This document shows, piece after piece, positions 31,271 through 44,346 of a stretch of 64,000 bases of DNA. The notes under the pieces are model-generated. The model was given only the letters and a program-made list of their open reading frames with translations. It had not been told where the DNA came from and did not search any database. A program made the translations under genes and the position numbers. Origin of the DNA: Thioclava marina (GTDB taxonomy: Bacteria > Pseudomonadota > Alphaproteobacteria > Rhodobacterales > Rhodobacteraceae); assembly GCF_002020135.1 (NCBI RefSeq), contig NZ_MPZS01000003.1, forward strand, positions 310,001 to 374,000, in the 5' to 3' direction. The stretch's first letter is position 1; every line of letters begins with the position of its first letter.

Positions 31271-31966
31271 TCAGTTGCGCAGCTGTTGGATCGCCACGTA
31301 TCCAAGCGCAGGCCCGATCCATTGGCGCGACGCGAGGATCGTGCCGTTGCCGTCCACCAGATAGCTCAGGTCAAGCGTGACGCCAGAGCCTTCGCAACGT
31401 TCGGCTACCTGCCGGGCCGAGATCCCGCCCTGATCGACGATGCCCGCGGGCTGGATCGTACAGGTGACGGGCAGGGGGCGTTCCGCCCCGTCGCCGTCGA
31501 GATAACGGAAGGTTCGTTTCGCGGTGCCTGCCTTGCGCGCATGGATCAGCGCGCCTGCCGCAGACGTATCGGCCGACATCAGGTCGCGCCCGAGGCCGCG
31601 CGTGCCCGCAAGCAGCCCGTCACGCAGGATGAAGGCGCGGGCATCGGGCGTCTGGTAGGTGCGCATCGCCCCGTTCTCGCCGCGCATCGCGCCCACGGTC
31701 GAGGCGTTGCCCGCCTCGAAGGTCACGAGGATGACGGGGCCCTGGATCGATTGCAGAGCCGCCGCCGCGAGGCTTGCCGGGTCGCTGGGTGCTGCCGGGG
31801 CCGCGTCCGCTTTCTTGCCGGGAAGGATCTTGCCGAAGGCCGATTTCACCATCGTGCCGCCGACCGAGCCGCCTTCCTGCACGCCGGCGCTGTCGTGGTT
31901 CGAGCAGCTCGCAAGCAGGCCGAGGCCCAGAACCGCCCCGAACAGGGCGCGAGGGGCCCCGCTCAT
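31271..31966 (-). CDS. YjbF/GfcB-family lipoprotein
   Basis: A 231-residue lipoprotein (lipobox LLASC at about residue 21) of the YjbF/GfcB group, which works with YjbH/GfcD in exporting or anchoring extracellular polysaccharide. The domain core VILVTFEAGNAS, ...ARAFILRDGLLAGTRG and LDGDGAERPLPVTC fits the family. Its start overlaps the yjbH stop by four bases (ATGA), so the two are coupled. Order here is yjbH then yjbF, unlike E. coli yjbEFGH. Confidence 0.82.
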   Translation of the reverse strand: MSGAPRALFGAVLGLGLLASCSNHDSAGVQEGGSVGGTMVKSAFGKILPGKKADAAPAAPSDPASLAAAALQSIQGPVILVTFEAGNASTVGAMRGENGAMRTYQTPDARAFILRDGLLAGTRGLGRDLMSADTSAAGALIHARKAGTAKRTFRYLDGDGAERPLPVTCTIQPAGIVDQGGISARQVAERCEGSGVTLDLSYLVDGNGTILASRQWIGPALGYVAIQQLRN

Positions 31967-34053
31967 CGCCAGAACCTCCCCCAGTCACGATAGAGACCGC
32001 CCTGGTGGCTGCCCTCGAGCGTCTCGTAGAGCCGCCCGTCGACATTCACCTGAGCGCCGCCATCGCCGACCGACGGCCGGATCGTCGTCGAGAAGCTCTT
32101 GAGCGAGGGCTGGCCGGTCGCGTACCCCAGCGGGATCGTCAGGCGGATACCCTTGTCGAAGTGGCCGTCGCCGAACTCCTCTTCCGACATGTCGGTGAAG
32201 GTCGCGAAGGCGCCGATCTTCCAGCCGTTGGCCATCTCGCGGTCGAGCGAAATCGTCGCGCCCCAATCCTCTGCGAGGTAGCGACCCACGTCGAGCTGGC
32301 CGGTCAACCCGTCGCCGAAGTCGTAATAGGCCGAGACGAAGCCGGTGACCGTGTCGTAATCCTGGAAGCCGAAGCGCTGGTCGAAATCACGCTGCTTGAC
32401 CCAGTTCAGCTCGGCCCCGAGCGCAAGGCGGCTGTCGACGGGCTTCCACAGCAATTCGCCCGAAATGCCGCCATACATCCGCTCGAGATAGCCCACGGTG
32501 ACGCGCGAATAGAGATCCTTGCCCGGGCGTCCATAGGCCGCGAAGGTCAGGTTCTGAAGCGCGAGATCGCCGTGTTTCTGGTATTCGTAGATGTCGCTGC
32601 GTACATGCGGCACGGTCGAGGTGGAGGTGGTGGTAACCTCGTCGAGATTGCCCAGAACCTTCTGGCGCACCTCGCCCGCAAGCACGAGCCCGGGCGCGAA
32701 TTCGTAACGTGCCTTGATCGCAAAGCCCATATCGGCATGCAGCCCTTCGCCCGGATCGAAGGGCGACAGCTCGAGGTAGGGGCCGATGCCCCAGAGCAGG
32801 CGCGGATAGAGCCCAGCCGTCTGTACATAGCCCTGATTGCCGCGCTCGGCCTCGCCGATCTGCGCGACAGCCGCGATCTGGGTCGAGGGGCCGTTTTCCA
32901 GCCGCTCGATATCGCTGCGCGAGAGGGTCGTCGTCGAGGCGGGCATGCCGCGCTCCACCAGCGTGATCTTGATCGTCTCGACCGAAGCGGGCAGGGCGCG
33001 CGTCGCGATGCGCGCGGCATGGCCGATCGCCTGCGGGTTGGCGCGATAGGTCTCGTTCGAGATCCGCAGATCGGCGGAGGTCGGGCTCAGCTTGAGCGAT
33101 TCCAGAACCTGCCCGTCCTTGCGCAGCGCATCGGCGATCGCGGTCTGGATCGCGGGGCGGGCGGTCGAGTCATTGGCCCAGTCGGTCGACCAGGTCTCCG
33201 GGTCGGCCGCGCGTGCGGAGCGCGGCGCGACGGGGATCGGGGCGCGCTCAAGCCCCGAGGGGGCGACCGGATGACGCGGATCGAGCGCGATGTTGAATTG
33301 CAGCCCCAGCTTGTCGCCATGCAGCACATAGCCCGAGACCGAGGCGATCTGGTTGATCCTGTAATCGACGCCGAAGTTGAACGGCGTCTTGACGTCAATC
33401 TCGCCCGCGGCCTCCTGCGCCGAATAGGCGTCCTTGGAGTATTCCGCCTTCAGCGTGAGCTTTTCGGTGGCTTGCCAGGCGATCGACGCGAAGGGTGCCG
33501 AGGGGCCCTTGAACCAGGCCTCCGAGTTCAACCCGCCCGTCGTGGAGGGGGCAGGGCGCGTGCCGCCACCCGAGCCGTCCGAACCGAGCCGACCCCAGCC
33601 CCAACCGATGCTGGCACGCAGGCGTGGTGTGATGGTCTTGGTCGCGACCACATATTCCGAGGCGTAGATCCCATTGTCGAAGATGTCGCGCAGGCCGACG
33701 GCGAAGGCCGGGCGCCAGCCCTTTTCGTTCAGCACCTGGAGATGCAGATCGAGGCTGCGATCCTTAAGCGTATCGCCCGCATCGAGCCCCTGCTCGCGCG
33801 AGTAACGCACGGTCGCGGTCAGGCGCGGGAAGACCTGAAAGGAGAAGTTCGCGCGCTGGCTGCCCTGATAGCCCGAGAGCGAGCCCACCAATTCGCCATC
33901 GCGGAAGACCTCGGCGGTGGGGGTGTCGATCGCACCGGGTGCGCCAAGCGTTCCGACGCTCCAGGCGATGGTCGATTCCGCCCCCGCCGGTTGCGCGAGC
34001 CCCATGCCCGCCAGAAGCGCCGTCGTCGCGATGCCGCCCGTGATCCGTTTCAT
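31963..34053 (-). CDS. YjbH-family outer-membrane exopolysaccharide protein
   Basis: A 696-residue predicted outer-membrane beta barrel of the YjbH/GfcD family. A signal peptide (about 1-25, ending QPAGAE) is followed by an N-terminal barrel-like part, a central soluble section (about 225-330, with IKITLVERGMPAS) and a C-terminal barrel ending LYRDWGRFWR. YjbH proteins are required for export of some polymers. Start at MKRITGG (34053); the earlier in-frame start adds 37 basic, unlike residues. First gene of a two-gene operon with yjbF. Confidence 0.85.
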   Translation of the reverse strand: MKRITGGIATTALLAGMGLAQPAGAESTIAWSVGTLGAPGAIDTPTAEVFRDGELVGSLSGYQGSQRANFSFQVFPRLTATVRYSREQGLDAGDTLKDRSLDLHLQVLNEKGWRPAFAVGLRDIFDNGIYASEYVVATKTITPRLRASIGWGWGRLGSDGSGGGTRPAPSTTGGLNSEAWFKGPSAPFASIAWQATEKLTLKAEYSKDAYSAQEAAGEIDVKTPFNFGVDYRINQIASVSGYVLHGDKLGLQFNIALDPRHPVAPSGLERAPIPVAPRSARAADPETWSTDWANDSTARPAIQTAIADALRKDGQVLESLKLSPTSADLRISNETYRANPQAIGHAARIATRALPASVETIKITLVERGMPASTTTLSRSDIERLENGPSTQIAAVAQIGEAERGNQGYVQTAGLYPRLLWGIGPYLELSPFDPGEGLHADMGFAIKARYEFAPGLVLAGEVRQKVLGNLDEVTTTSTSTVPHVRSDIYEYQKHGDLALQNLTFAAYGRPGKDLYSRVTVGYLERMYGGISGELLWKPVDSRLALGAELNWVKQRDFDQRFGFQDYDTVTGFVSAYYDFGDGLTGQLDVGRYLAEDWGATISLDREMANGWKIGAFATFTDMSEEEFGDGHFDKGIRLTIPLGYATGQPSLKSFSTTIRPSVGDGGAQVNVDGRLYETLEGSHQGGLYRDWGRFWR

Positions 34054-34374
34054 CCGTCTTCCCCGAAGGTTCGTTCCCAGTCTGAGGCCTTTCGTAACCG
34101 CTTTTGCACGCGCGCGCGAGAGGCGAGTGAAGATGTGTGAACGGGCGTTGCAGTTTGGCGGCATGGGGGCAGTCGATCTGCGCCCTCAATGCGAGCGCAA
34201 TCACCCTGAGCGCAACATCTGCGGCCACCCCTTGAGGCGGGGCGATCCGCGATGGGGCTGCGCCAGTCCGGTGTTCGCGATGTACACGCGTTCGCCGGGG
34301 CGTCCTGCGGCTGGGGGGCGATTGGCCCCGACCTGCCCCCTGCGGCAATCTGTCAGAATGATCTCTCGAAAATA

Positions 34375-34393
34375 TATGTTATCTGATAACATA
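34375..34393. promoter_or_regulatory. Perfect 19-bp palindrome, candidate Zur box
   Basis: TATGTTATCTGATAACATA is a 9-1-9 perfect inverted repeat, strikingly AT-rich for this genome. Its core ATGTTATC-T-GATAACAT differs from the ATGTTATA-n-TATAACAT form reported for proteobacterial Zur sites at one symmetrical position per half. Its centre is 27 bases before the ATG of the His-rich protein gene, where a repressor would block transcription. Confidence 0.6.
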
Positions 34394-34410
34394 ACGAAGT
34401 GAGGAGCCCG

Positions 34411-34920
34411 ATGTCGCAACCTGCCGAGCATATGCCGAACGCGCGCCGCCATGGTCATGGCAAGGGCCATGGCCCCGCCCATGCCGCGCGGCATCAGCAG
34501 GACCAGCACGATTTCCACACGCTTCTGAAGCATCACGCCCAGATCGCCCGCGAGGTCACCGAGACCCCTGACGGCATCATCGCCACCACGCGTTCGCACG
34601 ATCCGCAGATCGCGGCGCTGATCCGCAAACACGCGGTCTCGATGCATGAGCGGATGGAGAAGGGCCTTGGCTTGCGCAACTGGGATCCGGCTTTCGCCGA
34701 GATCTTCGCGCAGGCCGACAAGGTCGAGATGCAGATCGAATTGCTGCCCGATGGCGTGCGCGTCATCGAGCGGTCCGATGATCCGAATGTGGCGATCCTG
34801 ATCCACGCGCATGGCGCGGTGGTCTCGGGCTTCGTCGAAGGCGGAGCAAAGGTCGCGGCTCACGAGAGCCCCTTGCCCGACGCCTATATCCGAATGGCCG
34901 GCTCGTCACCGGTCGGGTGA
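34411..34920 (+). CDS. His-rich, internally duplicated cytosolic protein
   Basis: A 169-residue protein without a signal peptide. Residues 1-45 are His-rich (HGHGKGHGPAHAARH, then HDFHTLLKHH), a probable metal-binding tail. The rest is an internal duplication: PDGIIATTRSHDPQIAALIRKH (about 55-76) repeats as PDGVRVIERSDDPNVAILIH (about 116-135), each in a beta-beta-helix unit. Start at MSQPAEH with GAGGAG upstream. The palindrome before it suggests metal control. A zinc store or chaperone is plausible but is inference only; I do not recognise the family by name. Confidence 0.75.
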   Translation: MSQPAEHMPNARRHGHGKGHGPAHAARHQQDQHDFHTLLKHHAQIAREVTETPDGIIATTRSHDPQIAALIRKHAVSMHERMEKGLGLRNWDPAFAEIFAQADKVEMQIELLPDGVRVIERSDDPNVAILIHAHGAVVSGFVEGGAKVAAHESPLPDAYIRMAGSSPVG

Positions 34921-34972: not shown

Positions 34973-36121
34973 TTAAATGCAGGACTCGAACAGCGCGCGG
35001 GTGTTCTCGCGCGTCATCTCGACCGGGTTGCCGCCGCAGGAGGGATCTTCCAGCGCCATATCCGTCAGCATGTCGAGGTCTTCCGCTTTCACGCCCATCG
35101 CGGTGAGGTTGGCGGGGATACCCAGCTCGGTGCGCAGGCTCTCGACGCGCGCCTTGAAGCCCTCGAACCCGCCCGCGATGCCTAGGTAAGCCGCCGCTTG
35201 CGTGATCTTCTCCTCGATGGCGTCGCGGTTGAAATCGAGCACCATCGGCATCACGCAGGCATTGGTCGTGCCGTGATGGGTGCCGTAGACCGCCCCGACC
35301 GGGTGGCTGAGCGAATGGATCGCGCCAAGCCCTTTCTGGAACGCGACCGCCCCCATCGCCGCCGCCGACATCATATGCGCGCGCGCCTCGATATCGGTCG
35401 GGGTGGCGTAGGCCTTGGGCAGGTTCTCGAACACCAGCCGCATGCCTTCGAGCGCGATGCCCTGGCTCATCGGGTGGTAGAAGGGCGAGCAGAACGCCTC
35501 GAGGCAATGCGCCAGAGCGTCCATCCCGGTGCCAGCCGTGATGAAGGCGGGCATGCCCACCGTCAGCTCCGGGTCGCAGATCGTGACCACCGGCAGCAGT
35601 TTCGGGTGGAAGATGATCTTCTTCTTGTGGGTCTCGGAGTTGGTCAGAACGCCCGCGCGCCCCACTTCAGAACCGGTGCCTGCCGTGGTCGGCACCGCGA
35701 TGATCGGTGCGATCGTGTCGGGGTTGGCCCGCGTCCACCAGTCACCGATATCCTCGAGATCCCAGACGCTTACCGACTGATCCACCATCAGCGCGATCAT
35801 CTTGCCCAGATCGAGCGCCGAGCCGCCGCCGAAGCACACGACCCCGTCATGCCCGCCCGCGCGATAGACCTTGAGCCCGTCTTCCATGTTCTTCTCGTTC
35901 GGGTTCGGATCGACCTGCGAGAAGACCGCGCGGCCCAGACCTGCGGAGTCGAGAATTTCCAACGCCTGCGCGGTGATCGGCAGGCTCGCCAGCGCCTTGT
36001 CGGTCACCAGAAGCGGCTTGGTGATGCCTGCGGCCTTGCAGTGATCGGCCAGTTCCTTGACCCGGCCGGGGCCGAATTTGATCGCGGTCGGATAGGACCA
36101 GTTGGCGGTGGGGGCGCTCAT
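34973..36121 (-). CDS. Iron-containing alcohol dehydrogenase
   Basis: A 382-residue group III, Fe-dependent, NAD(P)-linked alcohol dehydrogenase. The nucleotide loop GGGSALDLGK (about 97-106) and metal-binding Asp/His ligands in GMDALAHCLEAF and HSLSHPVGAVYGTHHG are intact. Start at 36121 overlaps the aldehyde dehydrogenase stop by four bases (ATGA). Last gene of the seven-gene operon; together with the aldehyde dehydrogenase it should carry a primary alcohol to the acid. Confidence 0.93.
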   Translation of the reverse strand: MSAPTANWSYPTAIKFGPGRVKELADHCKAAGITKPLLVTDKALASLPITAQALEILDSAGLGRAVFSQVDPNPNEKNMEDGLKVYRAGGHDGVVCFGGGSALDLGKMIALMVDQSVSVWDLEDIGDWWTRANPDTIAPIIAVPTTAGTGSEVGRAGVLTNSETHKKKIIFHPKLLPVVTICDPELTVGMPAFITAGTGMDALAHCLEAFCSPFYHPMSQGIALEGMRLVFENLPKAYATPTDIEARAHMMSAAAMGAVAFQKGLGAIHSLSHPVGAVYGTHHGTTNACVMPMVLDFNRDAIEEKITQAAAYLGIAGGFEGFKARVESLRTELGIPANLTAMGVKAEDLDMLTDMALEDPSCGGNPVEMTRENTRALFESCI

Positions 36122-37506
36122 TTCGTCACCTTCTTGAGATGGTAGGATTTGGGTCGGGTCAGCGCGTGATAGCCGAGCACGGAGAGCGAGCCGCCACGGC
36201 CCGTTTCCTTGCAGCCCGTCCAGCACAGCGCCGGGTCGAGATAGTCGCAGCGGTTCATGAAGACCGTGCCGGTCTGCAGCCGGGCGCCGATCGCCTCGGC
36301 GCGCACCGGATCGGCGGTCCAGATCGAGCAGGTCAGCCCGTAGTCGCAATCGTTCATCGCGGCGATGGCTTCCTCGTCGTTCTTCACCGACATGATGCCG
36401 ACGACGGGGCCGAAGCTCTCCTCGCGCATCACGCGCATCTCGTGGTTCACATCGACGAGGATCTGCGGCGCGAGATAGGCGCCGCCATCGTCCGCCGGGA
36501 ACAGCGCCGGGTCTAGCAGCGGCTTTGCCCCGTCGGTGATCGCATCTTCGATCTGGCCGCGCACGACATCGGCAAAGCGCTTGTTCGCCATCGGGCCGAT
36601 CGTGGTTTCCGGCTCGAACGGGTTGCCGAGTTTCAGCTTGCTCGCCCAGTCCACGGCCTTCTCGACGAAGGCGTCATACAGGCTTTCATGGACATAGATC
36701 CGCTCGATCCCGCAGCAGCACTGGCCCGCGTTGAACAGCGCGCCATCCATCAGCCCGTCGACTGCGGCATCGAGATCGGCATCCTTGGCCACATAACCCG
36801 GGTCCTTGCCGCCCAGCTCCAGCCCCATGCCCACGAAGGTACCCGCCGCGGCTTTCTCGATATTGCGCCCGCCACCGACCGAGCCGGTGAAGTTGATGAA
36901 GTCGAAGGCGCGCTCGCCCAGCAGCGTCTCGGTCACCTCATGGCTGAGGAAGACGTTCTGGAACACGTCCTGCGGGATGCCCGCCTCGTGGAAGGCCTCG
37001 GCGATGCGCTCGCCCACCATCAGCGTTTGCGTGGCGTGTTTCAGCATCACCGTATTGCCCGCGATCAGCGCCGGCACGAGCGAGTTGATGACCGTCATGT
37101 AAGGGTAGTTCCACGGCGCGATGATCAGCACGAGGCCCACCGGCTCGCGGGTGATCTGGCGCAGGAAGGCCGGGCTTTCCTCGACCACCATCGGCGCGAG
37201 CGCACTTTCCGCGATCGAGGCCATGTAGCCCGCGCGCTCGTTCATGCCGCCGAATTCGCCGCCATAGCGGGTGGGGCGGCCCATCTGCCAGGCCAGCTCC
37301 TCGACGACCTGGTCCTTCTTCTCGTTGAGCTTGGCGATACCAGCCTCGACGAGCTTGATCCGCTCGGCCAGCGGACGCGCCGCCCAATCGGCCTGGGCCG
37401 CCTTGAGCTGCGCGACCATCGCCTGCGCCTCCGGGTGGGAGAGCGTCTTGCGCTCGGCATAGACCTGCCCGTCGACGGGCGAGATGCATTGGATCACTTT
37501 CGACAT
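36118..37506 (-). CDS. Aldehyde dehydrogenase family protein
   Basis: A 462-residue NAD(P)+-dependent aldehyde dehydrogenase. The general base is E230 (LELGGKDPG), the nucleotide motif FTGSVGGGRNI is near 206 and the nucleophile is C264 within an unusual CCC triplet (GQCCCG). I take the second of two adjacent ATG codons because AAGGAG is then properly spaced. Translationally coupled to the downstream alcohol dehydrogenase and 48 bp from the ligase gene upstream. Confidence 0.92.
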   Translation of the reverse strand: MSKVIQCISPVDGQVYAERKTLSHPEAQAMVAQLKAAQADWAARPLAERIKLVEAGIAKLNEKKDQVVEELAWQMGRPTRYGGEFGGMNERAGYMASIAESALAPMVVEESPAFLRQITREPVGLVLIIAPWNYPYMTVINSLVPALIAGNTVMLKHATQTLMVGERIAEAFHEAGIPQDVFQNVFLSHEVTETLLGERAFDFINFTGSVGGGRNIEKAAAGTFVGMGLELGGKDPGYVAKDADLDAAVDGLMDGALFNAGQCCCGIERIYVHESLYDAFVEKAVDWASKLKLGNPFEPETTIGPMANKRFADVVRGQIEDAITDGAKPLLDPALFPADDGGAYLAPQILVDVNHEMRVMREESFGPVVGIMSVKNDEEAIAAMNDCDYGLTCSIWTADPVRAEAIGARLQTGTVFMNRCDYLDPALCWTGCKETGRGGSLSVLGYHALTRPKSYHLKKVTK

Positions 37507-37554
37507 CATGTCTCCTTGCGGGCGTCCACGGCCCGCGGTCTCACTTTCAAAAAC

Positions 37555-38919
37555 TCAGGCGCGCTCGAAGCCGCGCATCCGTTCCCAATCGGTCACGACG
37601 CGGTTCTGCTCTTCCAGCTCCCAGCGCGCGGCACGGGCGTAATGGGCGACCACCTCAGGGCCGAAGGCCTCCTTCAGCATCGCGCTGCCTTCCAGCGCGC
37701 CGAGCGCCTCGCCCAGAGATTTGGGCACCTCGGTCACTTCGCCCGCCTTGTAGATATCGCCTGCGGCTTCCGGCCCCGGGTCCATCTCGCCCTCGATCCC
37801 CGCAAGCCCCGCCGCGAGCAGCGCGGCACAGGCGAGGTAGGGGTTTAGGTCTGCCCCGCCGATCCGGCATTCCACGCGGATGCTCTTGGTGCCCTCGCCG
37901 CAGATGCGGAAGCCCGCGGTGCGGTTGTCGAGCGACCAGACCGCTTTCGTCGGCGCGAAAAGCCCCTCGCAGAAACGCTTGTAGCTGTTGGTGTAGGGGG
38001 CGAGGAAATAGGTGATCTCGCGGGCATGGGCCAGCTGCCCGCCAAGGTAGTGATGCATCAGCTCGGACATGCCGTTGGGCGCCTCCGCATCGAAGAAGAC
38101 GGGCTTGCCAGCTTTCCACAGCGACTGGTGCACGTGGCTCGACGAGCCCGCCTTGTCGGTGTGGTATTTCGCCATGAAGGTCGCCGAGAGCCCATGCGAC
38201 TGCGCCACTTCCTTCGCGCATTGCTTCACCAGCACATGCATGTCGGCGGTCTCGAGCCCGCCCGAGTATTTCACGTTCAGCTCTTCCTGACCGCGCTCGG
38301 CCTCGCCCTTCGAGCACTCCACCGGGATGCCCGCGCGGTAAAGCGCATTGCGCATGTCGCGCATCGCGGGCTCGCAGCGGGAATTGCCGAAGATCGAGTA
38401 ATCGACATTGTAGCGCGCCACCGGGGTCGGGTCGGGATAGCCCGCGTCGAACAGCTCGGGGTAGCTTTCCTCGAACAGGAAGAACTCCAGCTCGGTCGCC
38501 ATCATCACGTCATAGCCCATCTCCTTCGCGCGCCCGATCTGGCGCTTGAGGACCGAGCGCGGCGCATGGGGCACCGGCTGATGGGTGTGATGGTCGAGCA
38601 GATCGCAGATCACCAGCGCCGTGCCCGGCACCCAGGGAATCAGGCGCAGCGTCTCCATGTCGGGTTTCATGACATAGTCGCCGTAACCACGCTCCCAGCT
38701 CGAGGCCTCGTAGCCCTGAACCGTGGCCATCTCGAGATCGGTGGCGAGCAGGTAGTTGCAGCAATGCGTCTCCTGCCAGCCGCTATCCACGAAATGTTGG
38801 GCGTGGAAACGCTTGCCCTGAAGGCGGCCCTGCATGTCCACCAGTGCGGCGATCACGGTGTCGATCTCGCCGGCCTTCACGGCCTTCTTGAGCGCGTCGA
38901 ACGAGAATTTGGCGGTCAT
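37555..38919 (-). CDS. Glutamine synthetase-family ligase (PuuA-like)
   Basis: A 454-residue glutamine-synthetase-fold enzyme of the gamma-glutamylpolyamine/amine synthetase type rather than GlnA. It has the catalytic segment KYHTDKAGSSSHVHQSL and the ATP/glutamate segment NSYKRF...DNRTAGFRI. It lacks the extended GlnA adenylylation loop, as far as I can judge. Expected reaction: ATP-dependent joining of glutamate to an amine. Start at MTAKFSF (38919), with GGAG upstream. Its place between a TRAP transporter and the aldehyde/alcohol dehydrogenases points to an amine or amino alcohol as substrate. Confidence 0.88.
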   Translation of the reverse strand: MTAKFSFDALKKAVKAGEIDTVIAALVDMQGRLQGKRFHAQHFVDSGWQETHCCNYLLATDLEMATVQGYEASSWERGYGDYVMKPDMETLRLIPWVPGTALVICDLLDHHTHQPVPHAPRSVLKRQIGRAKEMGYDVMMATELEFFLFEESYPELFDAGYPDPTPVARYNVDYSIFGNSRCEPAMRDMRNALYRAGIPVECSKGEAERGQEELNVKYSGGLETADMHVLVKQCAKEVAQSHGLSATFMAKYHTDKAGSSSHVHQSLWKAGKPVFFDAEAPNGMSELMHHYLGGQLAHAREITYFLAPYTNSYKRFCEGLFAPTKAVWSLDNRTAGFRICGEGTKSIRVECRIGGADLNPYLACAALLAAGLAGIEGEMDPGPEAAGDIYKAGEVTEVPKSLGEALGALEGSAMLKEAFGPEVVAHYARAARWELEEQNRVVTDWERMRGFERA

Positions 38920-39039
38920 TGGCTCCTCCGGGGTTTGAATGCGCCCCGCGACACTGCCGCGAGGCGAGGCGCCCGGCAAGAGCCGGACGTGGGGCAGGGC
39001 GCGCGGAACCGATCAAAGCGTCGCGCGCCCGCGATGTCG

Positions 39040-40074
39040 TCAGCCGTAGCGGTAGGGCGGGCCTGCCTTCGCCATGGTGTCGTTGTATTTCTTGAAGATG
39101 TCCACGACCTTCGCCTTGAGCGGGCTTTCGGCAGCGATTTCGTCCCAGAACTTGTGGGCGGCGTCTTCGACCTGTTTCCACTCGGCATCGGGGATCGTGG
39201 TCAGCTGCATCTCGGTGCCGTCCACGCGCAGCTTCGCTTCGCCCGACCAGTACCAGTACTGGCGGTGGTAATGCGACTGGTCGAAGCAGGTCTTCATCAG
39301 CGTCTTGAGACGATCCGGGACCTCGTTCCAGCGATCCATGTTGGCAAAGAAATGCCCGATCCACGCGCCCGAGATGTTGTTGGTCAGGAAGTAGGGCGCG
39401 TTCTTGCCCCAGCCCGAGGTGTAATCCTCGGTGATGCCCGACCAGGCGACACCGTCGAGCTCGCCGGTCTGAAGCGCGACTTCGACGTCTTCCCACGGGA
39501 TCGTCACCGGCACGACGCCGAATTGCGCGAGGAAGCGCCCCGCGGTCGGGAAGGTGAAGACCCGCTTGCCATTGAGATCGGCCAGCGACTTCACCGGCTC
39601 TTTCATCGCGAAGTTGCACGGATCCCACGAGCCCGCCGAGATGTGCTTGATGCCGACGGCCGAATACTGCTCGTCCCAGATCTCGTTGAGACCCCATTCG
39701 TTGAACAGCGTCGGCACGTCGAGCGAATAACGCAGCCCGAAGGGGAAGTAGCCGCCGAAGACGGTCACTTCGGTCGGCGAGGCCATCGAGTCGTCATCCG
39801 ACTGGACCGCGTCGATCGTGCCCGACTGCATCGCGCGGAACAGCTCCGAGGTCGGCACGAGTTGGTCGGCGTAATAGAGTTCGATCTCCATCTGACCGTC
39901 AGCGATCTCGTTGAAGGTCTTGATGCAGTTGTCCACGACCTGTTCGGCGAGTGCCGGACCTGCATAGGTCTGCATCCGCCACTTGATCTTGGATTGCGCG
40001 AGCGCGGGCGCCGCGAGACCGGCTGCCGCCGCCCCCACCGCCCCGGTGGTCAGAAACTTACGTCTTGTCGTCAT
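39040..40074 (-). CDS. TRAP transporter substrate-binding protein (DctP family)
   Basis: A 344-residue periplasmic binding protein with a twin-arginine signal (TTRRKFLTTG, cleavage after APALA near residue 26). The DctP fold follows (YYADQLVPTSELFRAMQSG, then GKRVFTFPTAGRF around 165). It captures the substrate for the adjacent permease. The substrate cannot be read from sequence. Confidence 0.92.
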   Translation of the reverse strand: MTTRRKFLTTGAVGAAAAGLAAPALAQSKIKWRMQTYAGPALAEQVVDNCIKTFNEIADGQMEIELYYADQLVPTSELFRAMQSGTIDAVQSDDDSMASPTEVTVFGGYFPFGLRYSLDVPTLFNEWGLNEIWDEQYSAVGIKHISAGSWDPCNFAMKEPVKSLADLNGKRVFTFPTAGRFLAQFGVVPVTIPWEDVEVALQTGELDGVAWSGITEDYTSGWGKNAPYFLTNNISGAWIGHFFANMDRWNEVPDRLKTLMKTCFDQSHYHRQYWYWSGEAKLRVDGTEMQLTTIPDAEWKQVEDAAHKFWDEIAAESPLKAKVVDIFKKYNDTMAKAGPPYRYG

Positions 40075-40123
40075 CTTTCATTCTCCTTGTTGGTAGGAAA
40101 GGCCCGGTTTGTCCGGGCTCTGG

Positions 40124-41449
40124 TTATCGTCCCAAAACCGCATGCGGCAGCCAAAGCGCCAGCTGCGGGAAGATCATCACGAGGATCAGCGTCAGGACCA
40201 TGACGCCCACGAAAGGGATCACCGAGGCATAGATCACCGGCAAGGTGAACTCCTTCGGCGCCATCGCCTTCATCAGGAACAGGTTATAGCCGAAGGGCGG
40301 CGTCAGATAGGCAACCTGACAGGTGATGGTATAAAGGACACCATACCAGATCATGTCGAAGCCCAGATGCCGCGCGAGGCTGACATAGACCGGCGCCACG
40401 ATCACCAGCATCGCCGTGTCGTCGAGGAACATCCCCATCACCAGAAAGCTCAGCTGCATCAGGATCAGGATCTGCCACGGGCCAAGGCCGAGGCTCTCGG
40501 TGAAGAAATCCTCGATCGCGCGGCCAGCGCCCAAGCCATCGAACACCGCGCCGAACGACAGCGCCGCGGTGATGATCAGCATGAACATCACGGTGATCTT
40601 GAGCGTGTTCTCGGTCGAGACCTTGAAGACCTGCCAGGTGAAGCGGCGCTTCACCGCCGCCGCCAGCACGGCCGAGAGCGCACCGATCACCGAAGCTTCG
40701 GTCAGGCTCGCCCAGCCCTTCAGGAAGGGCACCATCATCGCCACGAAGATGAAGACCGGCATCAGGCCCGCGCGCAGCAGCCGCAGCTTTTCGCGCATGG
40801 TGATCGCGGCGCGTTCCTCGGCATCCATCGGCGGCGCGAGATCGGGGTTCAGTTTGCAGCGGATCACGATGTAAGCGACGAACAGCACCGCCATCAGCAG
40901 CCCCGGAATGGCGCCCGCGAGCCACAGCTCGGACACCGGCTGGCGCGCGATCAGCGAGAACAGCACCAGCACGACCGAGGGCGGGATCAGGATGCCAAGG
41001 CTCGACCCTGCCTGAATCACGCCTGAAATCATCAGCTTGTCGTAATTCCGGCGCAGCAGCTCCGGCAGCGCGATCGTGGCGCCGATCGCCATGCCCGCGA
41101 CCGACAGCCCGTTCATCACCGAAATCATCACCATCAGCAGGATCGTCCCGATCGCGAGCCCACCCGGCAATGGCCCGAACCAGACGTGGAACATCCGGTA
41201 AAGATCCTCGGCCAGCCGGCTCTCGGACATCACGTAGCCCATGTAGACGAACATCGGCAGCGTCAGCAGCGGCGTCCACTTCATCAGCTTCATCACCGAG
41301 CCGAAGCCCATCTGCGTGCCGCCGGGCCCCCAGAGCGCGAAGGCCGCCACGACCGCGACGAAGCCGATCGCGCCGAAGACCCGCTGACCGGTCAGCATCA
41401 TCAACAGCATCGTCGAGAACATCAGTAGGGCGATGGTGTTGTGATCCAT
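40124..41449 (-). CDS. TRAP transporter large permease (DctM family)
   Basis: A 441-residue inner-membrane sodium/substrate symporter subunit with about twelve hydrophobic segments in the DctM pattern (GAIGFVAVVAAF at the start, ILIPPSVVLVLFSL in the middle, LTPPFGYNLFLMK near the end). Its start overlaps the dctQ-like stop by one base; the binding-protein gene follows after about 50 bp. Confidence 0.93.
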   Translation of the reverse strand: MDHNTIALLMFSTMLLMMLTGQRVFGAIGFVAVVAAFALWGPGGTQMGFGSVMKLMKWTPLLTLPMFVYMGYVMSESRLAEDLYRMFHVWFGPLPGGLAIGTILLMVMISVMNGLSVAGMAIGATIALPELLRRNYDKLMISGVIQAGSSLGILIPPSVVLVLFSLIARQPVSELWLAGAIPGLLMAVLFVAYIVIRCKLNPDLAPPMDAEERAAITMREKLRLLRAGLMPVFIFVAMMVPFLKGWASLTEASVIGALSAVLAAAVKRRFTWQVFKVSTENTLKITVMFMLIITAALSFGAVFDGLGAGRAIEDFFTESLGLGPWQILILMQLSFLVMGMFLDDTAMLVIVAPVYVSLARHLGFDMIWYGVLYTITCQVAYLTPPFGYNLFLMKAMAPKEFTLPVIYASVIPFVGVMVLTLILVMIFPQLALWLPHAVLGR

Positions 41450-41955
41450 CAGATTTCCTCCCCGCGGATCGTCGCGATGTCGCGGATCAGAAGAGCGCTC
41501 GCCTGCAACAGCATCATTGCGAAACCGAAGGTGATGATCGTCTTGATCGGCCAGAGATAGGGCCGCCAGGCGGTCGGGTTCCGCTCGTTATATTCGAACG
41601 CGTAAACCGTGGAATCGAAGGCCGAGTAGACCATGATCCCGAGATAGAACATCAGTGCGAAGACGGTGAACGCATCCCACCAGGCCTGACCTTTCGGGGA
41701 CCAGCGCGAATAGAGAAGGTCCATGCGCACATTCGCGTCCCCCTGCAGCGACCACGGCGCGCCGAGCATGTAATAGGCCACCAGCGTGAACTGGGCCATC
41801 TCCAGCGTCCAGAGCGCGGGGATATGCAGGATCTTCGTCGCCGACGAAAACAGCATGATCGCCATGATCACGTAGAGCAGATACATCGCCACTTTCCCGA
41901 GGCGACGGTTGAACCCCTCGACAAAGCGGACATAGGCGCGGATCCATCCCGGCAT
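41449..41955 (-). CDS. TRAP transporter small permease (DctQ family)
   Basis: A 168-residue inner-membrane subunit with four transmembrane helices (about 18-40, 50-70, 92-112, 135-158) and a Trp/Arg-rich loop (RMDLLYSRWSPKGQAWWD), as in DctQ. One-base stop/start overlaps on both sides couple it to the amidohydrolase gene upstream and the large permease gene downstream. Confidence 0.92.
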   Translation of the reverse strand: MPGWIRAYVRFVEGFNRRLGKVAMYLLYVIMAIMLFSSATKILHIPALWTLEMAQFTLVAYYMLGAPWSLQGDANVRMDLLYSRWSPKGQAWWDAFTVFALMFYLGIMVYSAFDSTVYAFEYNERNPTAWRPYLWPIKTIITFGFAMMLLQASALLIRDIATIRGEEI

Positions 41956-42725
41956 CAGGCGGCCTCCCCGGTCTGAGTTTCGATGCGCGCGATCGCAGCT
42001 TGCAGCACCGGCGCGAGGGTCGCGGCCATCGCAGCCTGCGCGTTCGCATCCGCGATCAGGTCGTTGCGCAGCTCCAGCATCACGTTCGGAAGCCCCATCG
42101 GGGTCGCCTGCAACGCGAGCGTATGGGTCACGCCATCGGCGCCCGAATAGGGCTCGTTGAGCCGCGCATCGAGGCCCGTTCGCGCCTGCGCCTCCGCCAG
42201 CACGGCCTCTGCGAGAGTGGCATCGGCATCGTGGATCATACCCAGTTCGACATCCCGGCGCTGCCCGAAATAGACCGGCGTGAAGGAATGCACCGTCACG
42301 ATCACAGGGGCAGCACCGCGCGCAAGCCTTCCCGCGATCAGCGCGCGCAGCTCGGCATGGAAGGGCAGGTAGAGCGCCTCTGTCCGCGCCGCACGCGCGG
42401 CCCGCGTCAGTCCTATATTCCCGGGAATATCATGGACTTCCGAACGTTCCGGCATCGCGCCCGCGTGCTGCGGCGGGCGGTTGAGATCATAGATCAGCCG
42501 CGATTGGCAGGCATGGGCCAGCGGCGCATCCAGTGCCTCGGCCAGCCCTTTCGCCAGCGCCAGCGCACCCGGATCCCACGCGATATGCGCGTCGCGCTGC
42601 TTGGCACTCAGCCCCAGATCGCCCCAGGGCGCGGGGAAGGAATTCGAGGCATGTTCGCAGATCACGACGCAGCGCCCCTTCCGGGCAGCCCCTTCGATCC
42701 GGATCGGTGCTATACTCCCGCTCAC
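41955..42725 (-). CDS. N-formylglutamate amidohydrolase-family protein
   Basis: A 256-residue metal-dependent amidohydrolase of the FGase family (histidine-degradation HutG relatives). Metal and active-site segments are visible: VVICEHASNSFP (about 20), HIAWDPGA (about 47) and IVTVHSFTPVYFG (about 140). No other hut gene is nearby. In this operon a hydrolase for gamma-glutamyl amides is more plausible than formylglutamate hydrolysis, but that is inference. First gene of the operon. Confidence 0.88.
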   Translation of the reverse strand: MSGSIAPIRIEGAARKGRCVVICEHASNSFPAPWGDLGLSAKQRDAHIAWDPGALALAKGLAEALDAPLAHACQSRLIYDLNRPPQHAGAMPERSEVHDIPGNIGLTRAARAARTEALYLPFHAELRALIAGRLARGAAPVIVTVHSFTPVYFGQRRDVELGMIHDADATLAEAVLAEAQARTGLDARLNEPYSGADGVTHTLALQATPMGLPNVMLELRNDLIADANAQAAMAATLAPVLQAAIARIETQTGEAA

Positions 42726-42854
42726 CCCAGTCCCCGATTCCCGCTTGCAACTCGCATTCAGGCTCGCCTCGCGTGCCCTTTTGTGTCAAGATATTTTCAG
42801 AATTTGTTTTTCTGTTACGATCTGTTCGATCCTTTTGGGCAAGGAGTGCACAAT

Positions 42855-43724
42855 TTGGCGGCAGTCTCGCAAAGCATCGAAGACCAGATCTCGGGCGCCA
42901 TCGAAGAGATGACCCGGGCCGAGAAGCAGCTCGCCAGCCATATCCTGCGCCATTACCCGATGTCGCTTCTGGGCTCGGTGACGCAGCTCGCCCGCGCCGC
43001 CGAGGTGTCGTCGCCTACCGTGGTGCGGCTCGCGCAGAAGATGGGTTTCGGCGGCTATCCCGGGTTGCAACAGGCGGTGCGCGACGAGCTGGAGGCGCAG
43101 CTTGTCTCGCCGCTGGTGAAACACGACCGCTGGGCCGGGGACGCGCCCGAGACCCATATGCTCAACCGTTTCGCCGATGCGGTGCTGGGCAATCTGCAAG
43201 CCACGCTGAAACAGATCGACCATGCGCAATTCGATGCGGCCGCCGCCCTTCTGGCCGATCCGAACCGCCGCATCTTTGCCACGGGCGGGCGCATCACCCT
43301 GCCGATCGCGCAATATTTCGTCTCGCATATGAAGGTGATCCGGCCCGGCGTCGAACTGCTCGAACCGGTGTCGAACGCCTGGCCGCCCGCGCTTTTGGAA
43401 ATGCGCAAGGGGGATGCGCTTCTCGTTTTCGATATCCGGCGTTACGAGAACACGGTGCTGCAACTGGTGGAAATGGCGGCCGATCAGGGCGTCGAGGTGA
43501 TCCTGTTCACCGACCCCTGGGTCAGCCCCGCCGCCGCCCATGCCCGGTTCCGTTTCTCTGCCCAGATCGAGGTGCCCTCGGCCTGGGATTCGACCGTCGC
43601 GATCCAGGTGCTGGTCGAGACGCTGATGGCCGCCGTGCAATCGCTCACCTGGGAAGAGACCGAAGCGCGGATGAAGCGCCTCGAAGAGCTCTACGACCGC
43701 GCGCGCTTCTTCCGGCGGAAGTAA
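42855..43724 (+). CDS. MurR/RpiR-family transcriptional regulator
   Basis: A 289-residue regulator. The N-terminal HTH_6 domain (about 10-85; ARAAEVSSPTVVRLAQKMGF) is followed by a SIS sugar-phosphate-binding fold (about 115-250; RRIFATGGRITL, GDALLVFDIRRYEN). A TTG start at 42855 is eight bases after AAGGAG; a GTG at 42846 overlaps that site and is less likely. Divergent from the amidohydrolase-TRAP-ligase operon, which it probably controls. The large palindrome starts one base after its stop. Confidence 0.9.
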   Translation: MAAVSQSIEDQISGAIEEMTRAEKQLASHILRHYPMSLLGSVTQLARAAEVSSPTVVRLAQKMGFGGYPGLQQAVRDELEAQLVSPLVKHDRWAGDAPETHMLNRFADAVLGNLQATLKQIDHAQFDAAAALLADPNRRIFATGGRITLPIAQYFVSHMKVIRPGVELLEPVSNAWPPALLEMRKGDALLVFDIRRYENTVLQLVEMAADQGVEVILFTDPWVSPAAAHARFRFSAQIEVPSAWDSTVAIQVLVETLMAAVQSLTWEETEARMKRLEELYDRARFFRRK

Positions 43725-43861
43725 GGGGGCGCTGCCCCCGTCTCCTTCGGAGCCTCCCCCGAGATATTTAGATCAAGAAGAAGCGGAACGGACCGCATCT
43801 TCTTCTTGATGAAAATATCTCGGGGGTGAATGGCCGATAGGCCAGAGGGGGCAGCGCCCCC
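43725..43861. repeat. 137-nt double-hairpin palindromic element
   Basis: Two nested inverted repeats. The outer arms GGGGGCGCTGCCCCC (43725) and GGGGGCAGCGCCCCC (43847) are exact reverse complements. The inner 28-nt arms (43756-43783 and 43799-43826) match at 26 of 28 positions and share the AAGAAGAAG/GAGATATTT core. Half-copies lie at 24477 and 29211. It sits just after the RpiR gene, like a REP/BIME-type element. Confidence 0.85.
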
Positions 43862-44028
43862 TAGGCGAATTCGCCGGGCGCGGCGAGCTGGTTCGTCGGT
43901 GCCGAGCTGATCCGCATCGTTCTGATCGTGCCGATCCCGGCGCGGGCTTTGCTGCCGCTGCAGGCGTGCGAAAAGAGCGGTGATTTTCACGCGCATCTGT
44001 GCGAGCATGAGCCGGAGGAGGACCGCCC

Positions 44029-44346
44029 ATGACCGAGATTTCCAGCGATTTCAACGGGCAGACCGTGATCTGCACCTTCGAGATGACCCCCGCCACCGCC
44101 GACGAACTGATGGAGAAGCTTCAGTCGGCCTATTCGGAAGTGATCTCGAAAGCGCCCGGCTTCGTTGGCGCGGGGTTGCATATGAATGATGCACGTACCC
44201 GCATCGCCACCTATTCGAAATGGGCAGAGCGCGGGGATTATCAGGCAATGCTGCGCAGCCCCGAGATGATCGCCCGCAACCGGGTGATCAACACGCTTTG
44301 CCGGAGCTTCGAGCCGGTGATGTACGAGGTCGCGGCAGATTTCTGA
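44029..44346 (+). CDS. ABM-domain (antibiotic biosynthesis monooxygenase-like) protein
   Basis: A 105-residue small dimeric alpha-beta-barrel protein of the ABM superfamily (VICTFEMTPATADELMEKL then PGFVGAGLHMNDARTRIATYSKW). Family members include cofactor-free monooxygenases and heme-degrading enzymes; the reaction is not determined here. GGAGGAGG precedes the ATG. Single gene. Confidence 0.85.
   Translation: MTEISSDFNGQTVICTFEMTPATADELMEKLQSAYSEVISKAPGFVGAGLHMNDARTRIATYSKWAERGDYQAMLRSPEMIARNRVINTLCRSFEPVMYEVAADF

Follow-up and report, generated by a model that had tools for sequence, protein, structure and literature searches.

A probable ethanolamine-to-glycine gamma-glutamylation operon in Thioclava marina, orthologous to the published eto cluster

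Which compound is handled by a minus-strand operon of Thioclava marina that joins TRAP transporter genes to a glutamine-synthetase-family ligase, and is this combination of genes new? The operon lies in the window, the whole stretch of DNA analysed here (64,000 nucleotides, positions 310,001 to 374,000 of contig NZ_MPZS01000003.1). The earlier note on this DNA had counted seven minus-strand genes and a divergent RpiR regulator, and this composition holds: the seven genes (42725 to 34973) and the regulator are present with their families confirmed by Pfam (Table 1), and none of the eight frames contains an internal stop. Based on comparison of sequences, we conclude with a probability of roughly 0.93 that this is an ethanolamine-to-glycine gamma-glutamylation operon, orthologous to the eto cluster already described in Phaeobacter sp. 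MED193.

Table 1. Coordinates (positions in the window) and supporting matches of the operon, its regulator and the control region between them.
Feature	Position	Strand	Matches and remarks
RpiR-family transcriptional regulator	42846-43724	+	292 aa, GTG start; Pfam HTH_6 1.8e-15, SIS 8.8e-14; diverges from operon
Divergent control region	42726-42845	none	TTGACA box; candidate promoter and putative RpiR operator
FGase-family amidohydrolase, predicted gamma-glutamylglycine amidohydrolase (GGAH)	41955-42725	-	PF05013 1.8e-41; Atu2144 (2odf) 9e-76
TRAP small permease DctQ (EtoV-like)	41449-41955	-	PF04290 5.2e-18
TRAP large permease DctM (EtoW-like)	40124-41449	-	PF06808 9.8e-66
TRAP binding protein DctP, predicted ethanolamine binder EtoX	39040-40074	-	4uab_A 567 bits; Tat signal; Phe173
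Glutamine-synthetase-family ligase (Gln-synt_C), predicted ethanolamine gamma-glutamylase	37555-38919	-	PF00120 1.2e-103; 5dm3_A 610 bits
Aldehyde dehydrogenase (Aldedh), predicted to convert gamma-glutamylated aldehyde to gamma-glutamylglycine	36118-37509	-	PF00171 1.5e-119; ELGGK, GQC
Iron-family alcohol dehydrogenase (Fe-ADH), predicted gamma-glutamylethanolamide dehydrogenase	34973-36121	-	PF00465 3.6e-46, PF25137 1e-44; DAxAHC, HxxSHP, THHGT

The overlaps and close spacing of the seven genes fit a single transcript. The stop of the hydrolase gene and the start of DctQ have one base in common, as do DctQ and DctM, the two dehydrogenase genes overlap by 4 bases, and the widest gap, between the binding protein and the ligase, measures 120 bases. 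The most likely start of the iron alcohol dehydrogenase is the ATG at 36121, within the overlap with the aldehyde dehydrogenase stop, rather than the TTG at 36349, and that of the ligase is most likely the ATG at 38919. Among the frames submitted to Pfam, the nearest flanking matches lie at 31963-34164 (a YjbH-type exopolysaccharide gene) and 44029-44346 (an ABM-domain gene); three frames between these and the operon (34201-34863, 34399-34920 and 43691-44008) gave no Pfam match. In the divergent control region, the TTGACA box is conserved among 11 aligned Thioclava and Rhodobacter sequences (11 of 58 intergenic regions), and so are the nearby stretches GTAACAGAAA and TTCTGAAAA. The box and these stretches are candidates for the promoter and RpiR operator, and regulation of this promoter by RpiR is probable.

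Ethanolamine is a building block of lipids, and genes for its uptake and conversion to glycine by way of glutamylation are known from marine and other bacteria. A cluster for the ethanolamine route, MED193_10021 to _10056, is described in Phaeobacter sp. MED193 (PMC10132767). By rising locus tag, the genes given there encode RpiR, gamma-glutamylglycine amidohydrolase, EtoV, EtoW and EtoX, followed by ethanolamine gamma-glutamylase, gamma-glutamylated-aldehyde dehydrogenase and gamma-glutamylethanolamide dehydrogenase (PMC10132767). A comparison of the gene lists shows that these eight genes correspond one by one to those of the window, in identical order and with no difference in kind. The same source reports that MED193 EtoX binds ethanolamine with a Kd of 7.9 uM, the other analogues named there being unbound, and that five cluster proteins are significantly higher with phosphorylethanolamine (PMC10132767, Table 2). 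Ethanolamine binding by EtoX and the rise of the five proteins are thus shown for orthologues elsewhere; for T. marina, we infer the substrates of the enzymes and regulation by RpiR. The earlier note did not know of a described pathway that joins TRAP uptake to an iron alcohol dehydrogenase and an FGase-family hydrolase, but the view that this combination is undescribed is wrong: it matches, gene by gene, the cluster set out in PMC10132767. The gamma-glutamylation chemistry that the note had proposed, in which oxidation proceeds on the masked amine, is nevertheless the published reading of the same gene set, with ethanolamine as the best-supported substrate. The pathway is already known, and the operon adds no new mechanism to it.

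In the proposed pathway, ethanolamine would be bound by the periplasmic TRAP protein EtoX and imported through EtoVW. The ligase would use ATP to attach it to the gamma-carboxyl of glutamate, giving gamma-glutamylethanolamide, the alcohol group of which would be oxidized to the aldehyde by the iron alcohol dehydrogenase. The aldehyde dehydrogenase would then convert the gamma-glutamylated aldehyde to gamma-glutamylglycine, which the FGase-family hydrolase is predicted to split into glycine and glutamate.

The binding protein is the component that points to the substrate, and its sequence makes ethanolamine the most likely one. In a comparison with all solved structures, residues 26-343 matched 4uab_A with an E-value of 1.4e-169, compared to 89 bits and 3.8e-24 for the runner-up; the sequence of 4xf5 is identical to 4uab_A. 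We take 4uab to be Csal_0678, the ethanolamine-binding protein of Chromohalobacter salexigens, in a structure that contains ethanolamine. The Tat-type signal is supported by a model score of 20.6 bits (cut-off 16.7). The arginine with which TRAP binding proteins usually bind carboxylates is lost: position 173 is Phe, as is its equivalent in 80 of 80 related loci, and all 6 aligned paralogues of the same genome carry Arg there (the genome has nine DctP-family matches including that of the window, and two of the other eight, unaligned at the BLAST step, fall outside this count). In PMC4646407, Csal_0678, from the gammaproteobacterial ethanolamine cluster of C. salexigens, is likewise described as lacking the usual arginine and as binding ethanolamine. 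The arginine is absent from 199 of 6142 members of the TRAP binding-protein family, with Phe as its commonest substitute (PMC4646407), so that Phe173 agrees with a non-carboxylate ligand and is not proof of ethanolamine, which the review PMC5812351 describes as a surprising TRAP ligand.

The substrate is not fixed by the enzyme families alone, and for the ligase and both dehydrogenases all NCBIfam models listed score below cut-off (for the aldehyde dehydrogenase, the best 25 of 44 models). The glutamylation logic could therefore be retained with a different physiological substrate, either another amino alcohol (for example alaninol or 1-amino-2-propanol) or an amine like isopropylamine, as in the Ipu pathway. 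Against this stands the closeness of the binding protein to 4uab_A, presumably the ethanolamine binder Csal_0678. The operon moreover matches the cluster of MED193 EtoX, for which binding was measured with ethanolamine (PMC10132767), and we regard a different substrate as quite unlikely. As 4uab is Csal_0678 by presumption and the loss of the arginine is not specific to ethanolamine, our confidence in ethanolamine is slightly lowered and the case for another substrate slightly raised. It is very unlikely that the Thioclava/Rhodobacter operon has been retuned to take another amino alcohol too, for example 1-amino-2-propanol, yielding an amino acid other than glycine. Ethanolamine remains the most likely substrate.

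The best matches of the ligase among solved structures are 5dm3_A (E-value 3.6e-182), presumably a C. salexigens protein, and 11zs_A (568 bits), with the next at 195 bits. Its membership in PF00120 and its top NCBIfam match, the GlnA model of type I glutamine synthetase, would also suit an ordinary ammonia-using glutamine synthetase, but the GlnA score is 268 bits compared to an equivalog cut-off of 429, and PF00120 is matched more strongly elsewhere in the genome, at C1:396697 (446 vs 348 bits). A tree of 32 rows comprised 22 of 65 full-length cluster ligases, those of the window and of Paracoccus, six paralogues from the same genome (one entered twice) and E. coli PuuA. The 24 cluster ligases fall on one side of a branch, apart from the genome's own glutamine-synthetase-family proteins and PuuA, with support of 94/92, which the program rates as neither shown nor rejected, with a warning of long branches meeting. 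On the cluster side of this branch, the ligase of the window is placed with those of the Thioclava and Rhodobacter clusters (support 100/100). In an earlier quick tree of 24 cluster ligases, the GlnA candidate (L004) stood next to them without a resolved position, its end branch being 9.88 long. The alignment around the GlnA ammonium-binding loop was unsteady, with gaps in PuuA and a shift in the GlnA row, and yielded no usable marker. On balance, we reject the ordinary glutamine synthetase role as highly improbable. Membership in PuuA was rejected as well: the gamma-glutamylputrescine synthetase model gives 215 bits where its equivalog cut-off is 650, and identity to E. coli PuuA is 32% over residues 115-446 (27–34% to six other glutamine-synthetase-family proteins of the genome). 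The label "PuuA-like" given by the earlier note is consequently a loose one. The assignment that we favour for this protein is ethanolamine gamma-glutamylase.

A separate observation concerns the stretch C1:1056012-1061132 (L007, L092) elsewhere in the genome: a further glutamine-synthetase-family gene there lies about 2 kb from the glycine decarboxylase gene, groups with E. coli PuuA in the 32-row tree (96/83) and perhaps belongs to another glutamylation route.

Atu2144 is the sole match of the hydrolase among solved structures at E-values up to 0.001. Since PF05013 is named after formylglutamate amidohydrolase, we considered whether the enzyme could be an N-formylglutamate deformylase of histidine breakdown (HutG-type) that merely adjoins the transporter and dehydrogenases. 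The genome has no match to the histidase family (PF00221; the control gave matches in 5 of 14 genomes), so that formylglutamate would lack its usual source here. Another of its three FGase-family genes, C1:1588101, agrees much more closely with the family model (2.0e-72 vs 1.9e-41), and the hydrolase gene of the operon is matched in 58 of the 80 loci of the cluster. The deformylase role was rejected as having hardly any likelihood, and gamma-glutamylglycine remains the predicted substrate. As for the dehydrogenases, the stretches DAxAHC, HxxSHP and THHGT of the iron alcohol dehydrogenase are kept in at least 95% of 60 relatives, and ELGGK and GQC of the aldehyde dehydrogenase in at least 95% of 62; we assume that these are the sites of the metal ligands and catalytic residues.

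The earlier note had proposed a search for the same gene order among relatives, and the order proved to be conserved. When named genomes were searched with the binding protein, 223 relatives came up; the best 80 of these were taken as loci, and genes were scored as present by tblastn at E-values up to 1e-10. All eight genes, with order and orientation kept, occur in 50 of these 80 loci, which argues that the order is not due to chance. The closest such locus, in Thioclava pacifica DSM 10166 (L012), has 92–99% identity across the eight proteins, and plasmid 1 of Paracoccus denitrificans PD1222 carries the identical order as annotated, hydrolase included. Identity to the proteins of the window is 77% for the binding protein and 58–60% for the ligase in Roseobacter and Ruegeria loci (L056, L064, L065, L069, L081, L086), and 72% and 58%, respectively, in a Chromohalobacter israelensis locus (L077) with the same eight-gene order.

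The full order is absent from the other 30 loci, some of which end at contig borders. Ten of the 80 contain the TRAP trio alone (L021, L024, L036, L038, L040, L045, L054, L063, L072, L087), four of these (L021, L024, L054, L072) with about 10 kb present on both sides, which indicates that the link between transporter and enzymes is not a strict one; L074 has only two of the three TRAP genes. Around five of the ten TRAP-only loci, judged by reading frames only, a second pathway was not seen. Upstream of the trio in L038, frames may be histidine-utilisation genes, judging by their first residues. Every gene except the aldehyde dehydrogenase was matched in L049, and every gene except the hydrolase in L057, L078 and L091, where the amide may be split by another enzyme. 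Among the matches listed, binding proteins from the family of the organism form two groups, with at least 71% and at most 63% identity, and the lower group may bind another ligand.

No EutB-family match was found in the genome, so that by this test the ammonia-lyase route is absent, and a match to the glycine decarboxylase P protein (GDC-P) indicates that glycine can probably be used.

Other systems share parts of this scheme. The Puu pathway of E. coli follows the logic of gamma-glutamylation, oxidation and hydrolysis that is proposed for the operon, but differs from it in its substrate putrescine, its symporter PuuP and its different hydrolase PuuD. In the Ipu pathway of isopropylamine, likened here by description, the amine is glutamylated before oxidation, and the substrate and accessory enzymes differ from those of the window. 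The ethanolamine cluster of C. salexigens reportedly goes back to Vetting et al. 2015. Earlier studies of C. salexigens and of Agrobacterium tumefaciens are cited in PMC10132767. PMC6529630 presents the C. salexigens route as an in silico prediction and proposes like chemistry for Streptomyces coelicolor. As described there, the GlnA4 pathway of S. coelicolor resembles the operon in proposed chemistry, enzyme families and an FGase-family hydrolase and differs in that the relevant part of the text names no TRAP transporter (PMC6529630). A table in PMC9397018 lists the enzyme families PF00120, PF00465, PF00171 and PF05013 for both C. salexigens and S. coelicolor.

In PMC10132767 (figure 5 legend) and PMC6529630, the later enzyme steps are termed predicted, and the operon could for this reason serve as material for direct assays. 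Our results place the published ethanolamine route in T. marina, probably as an orthologue of the MED193 cluster, and relatives often have its binding protein too, a close one (E-value up to 1e-100) being present in 159 of 295 genomes sampled from the family of the organism.
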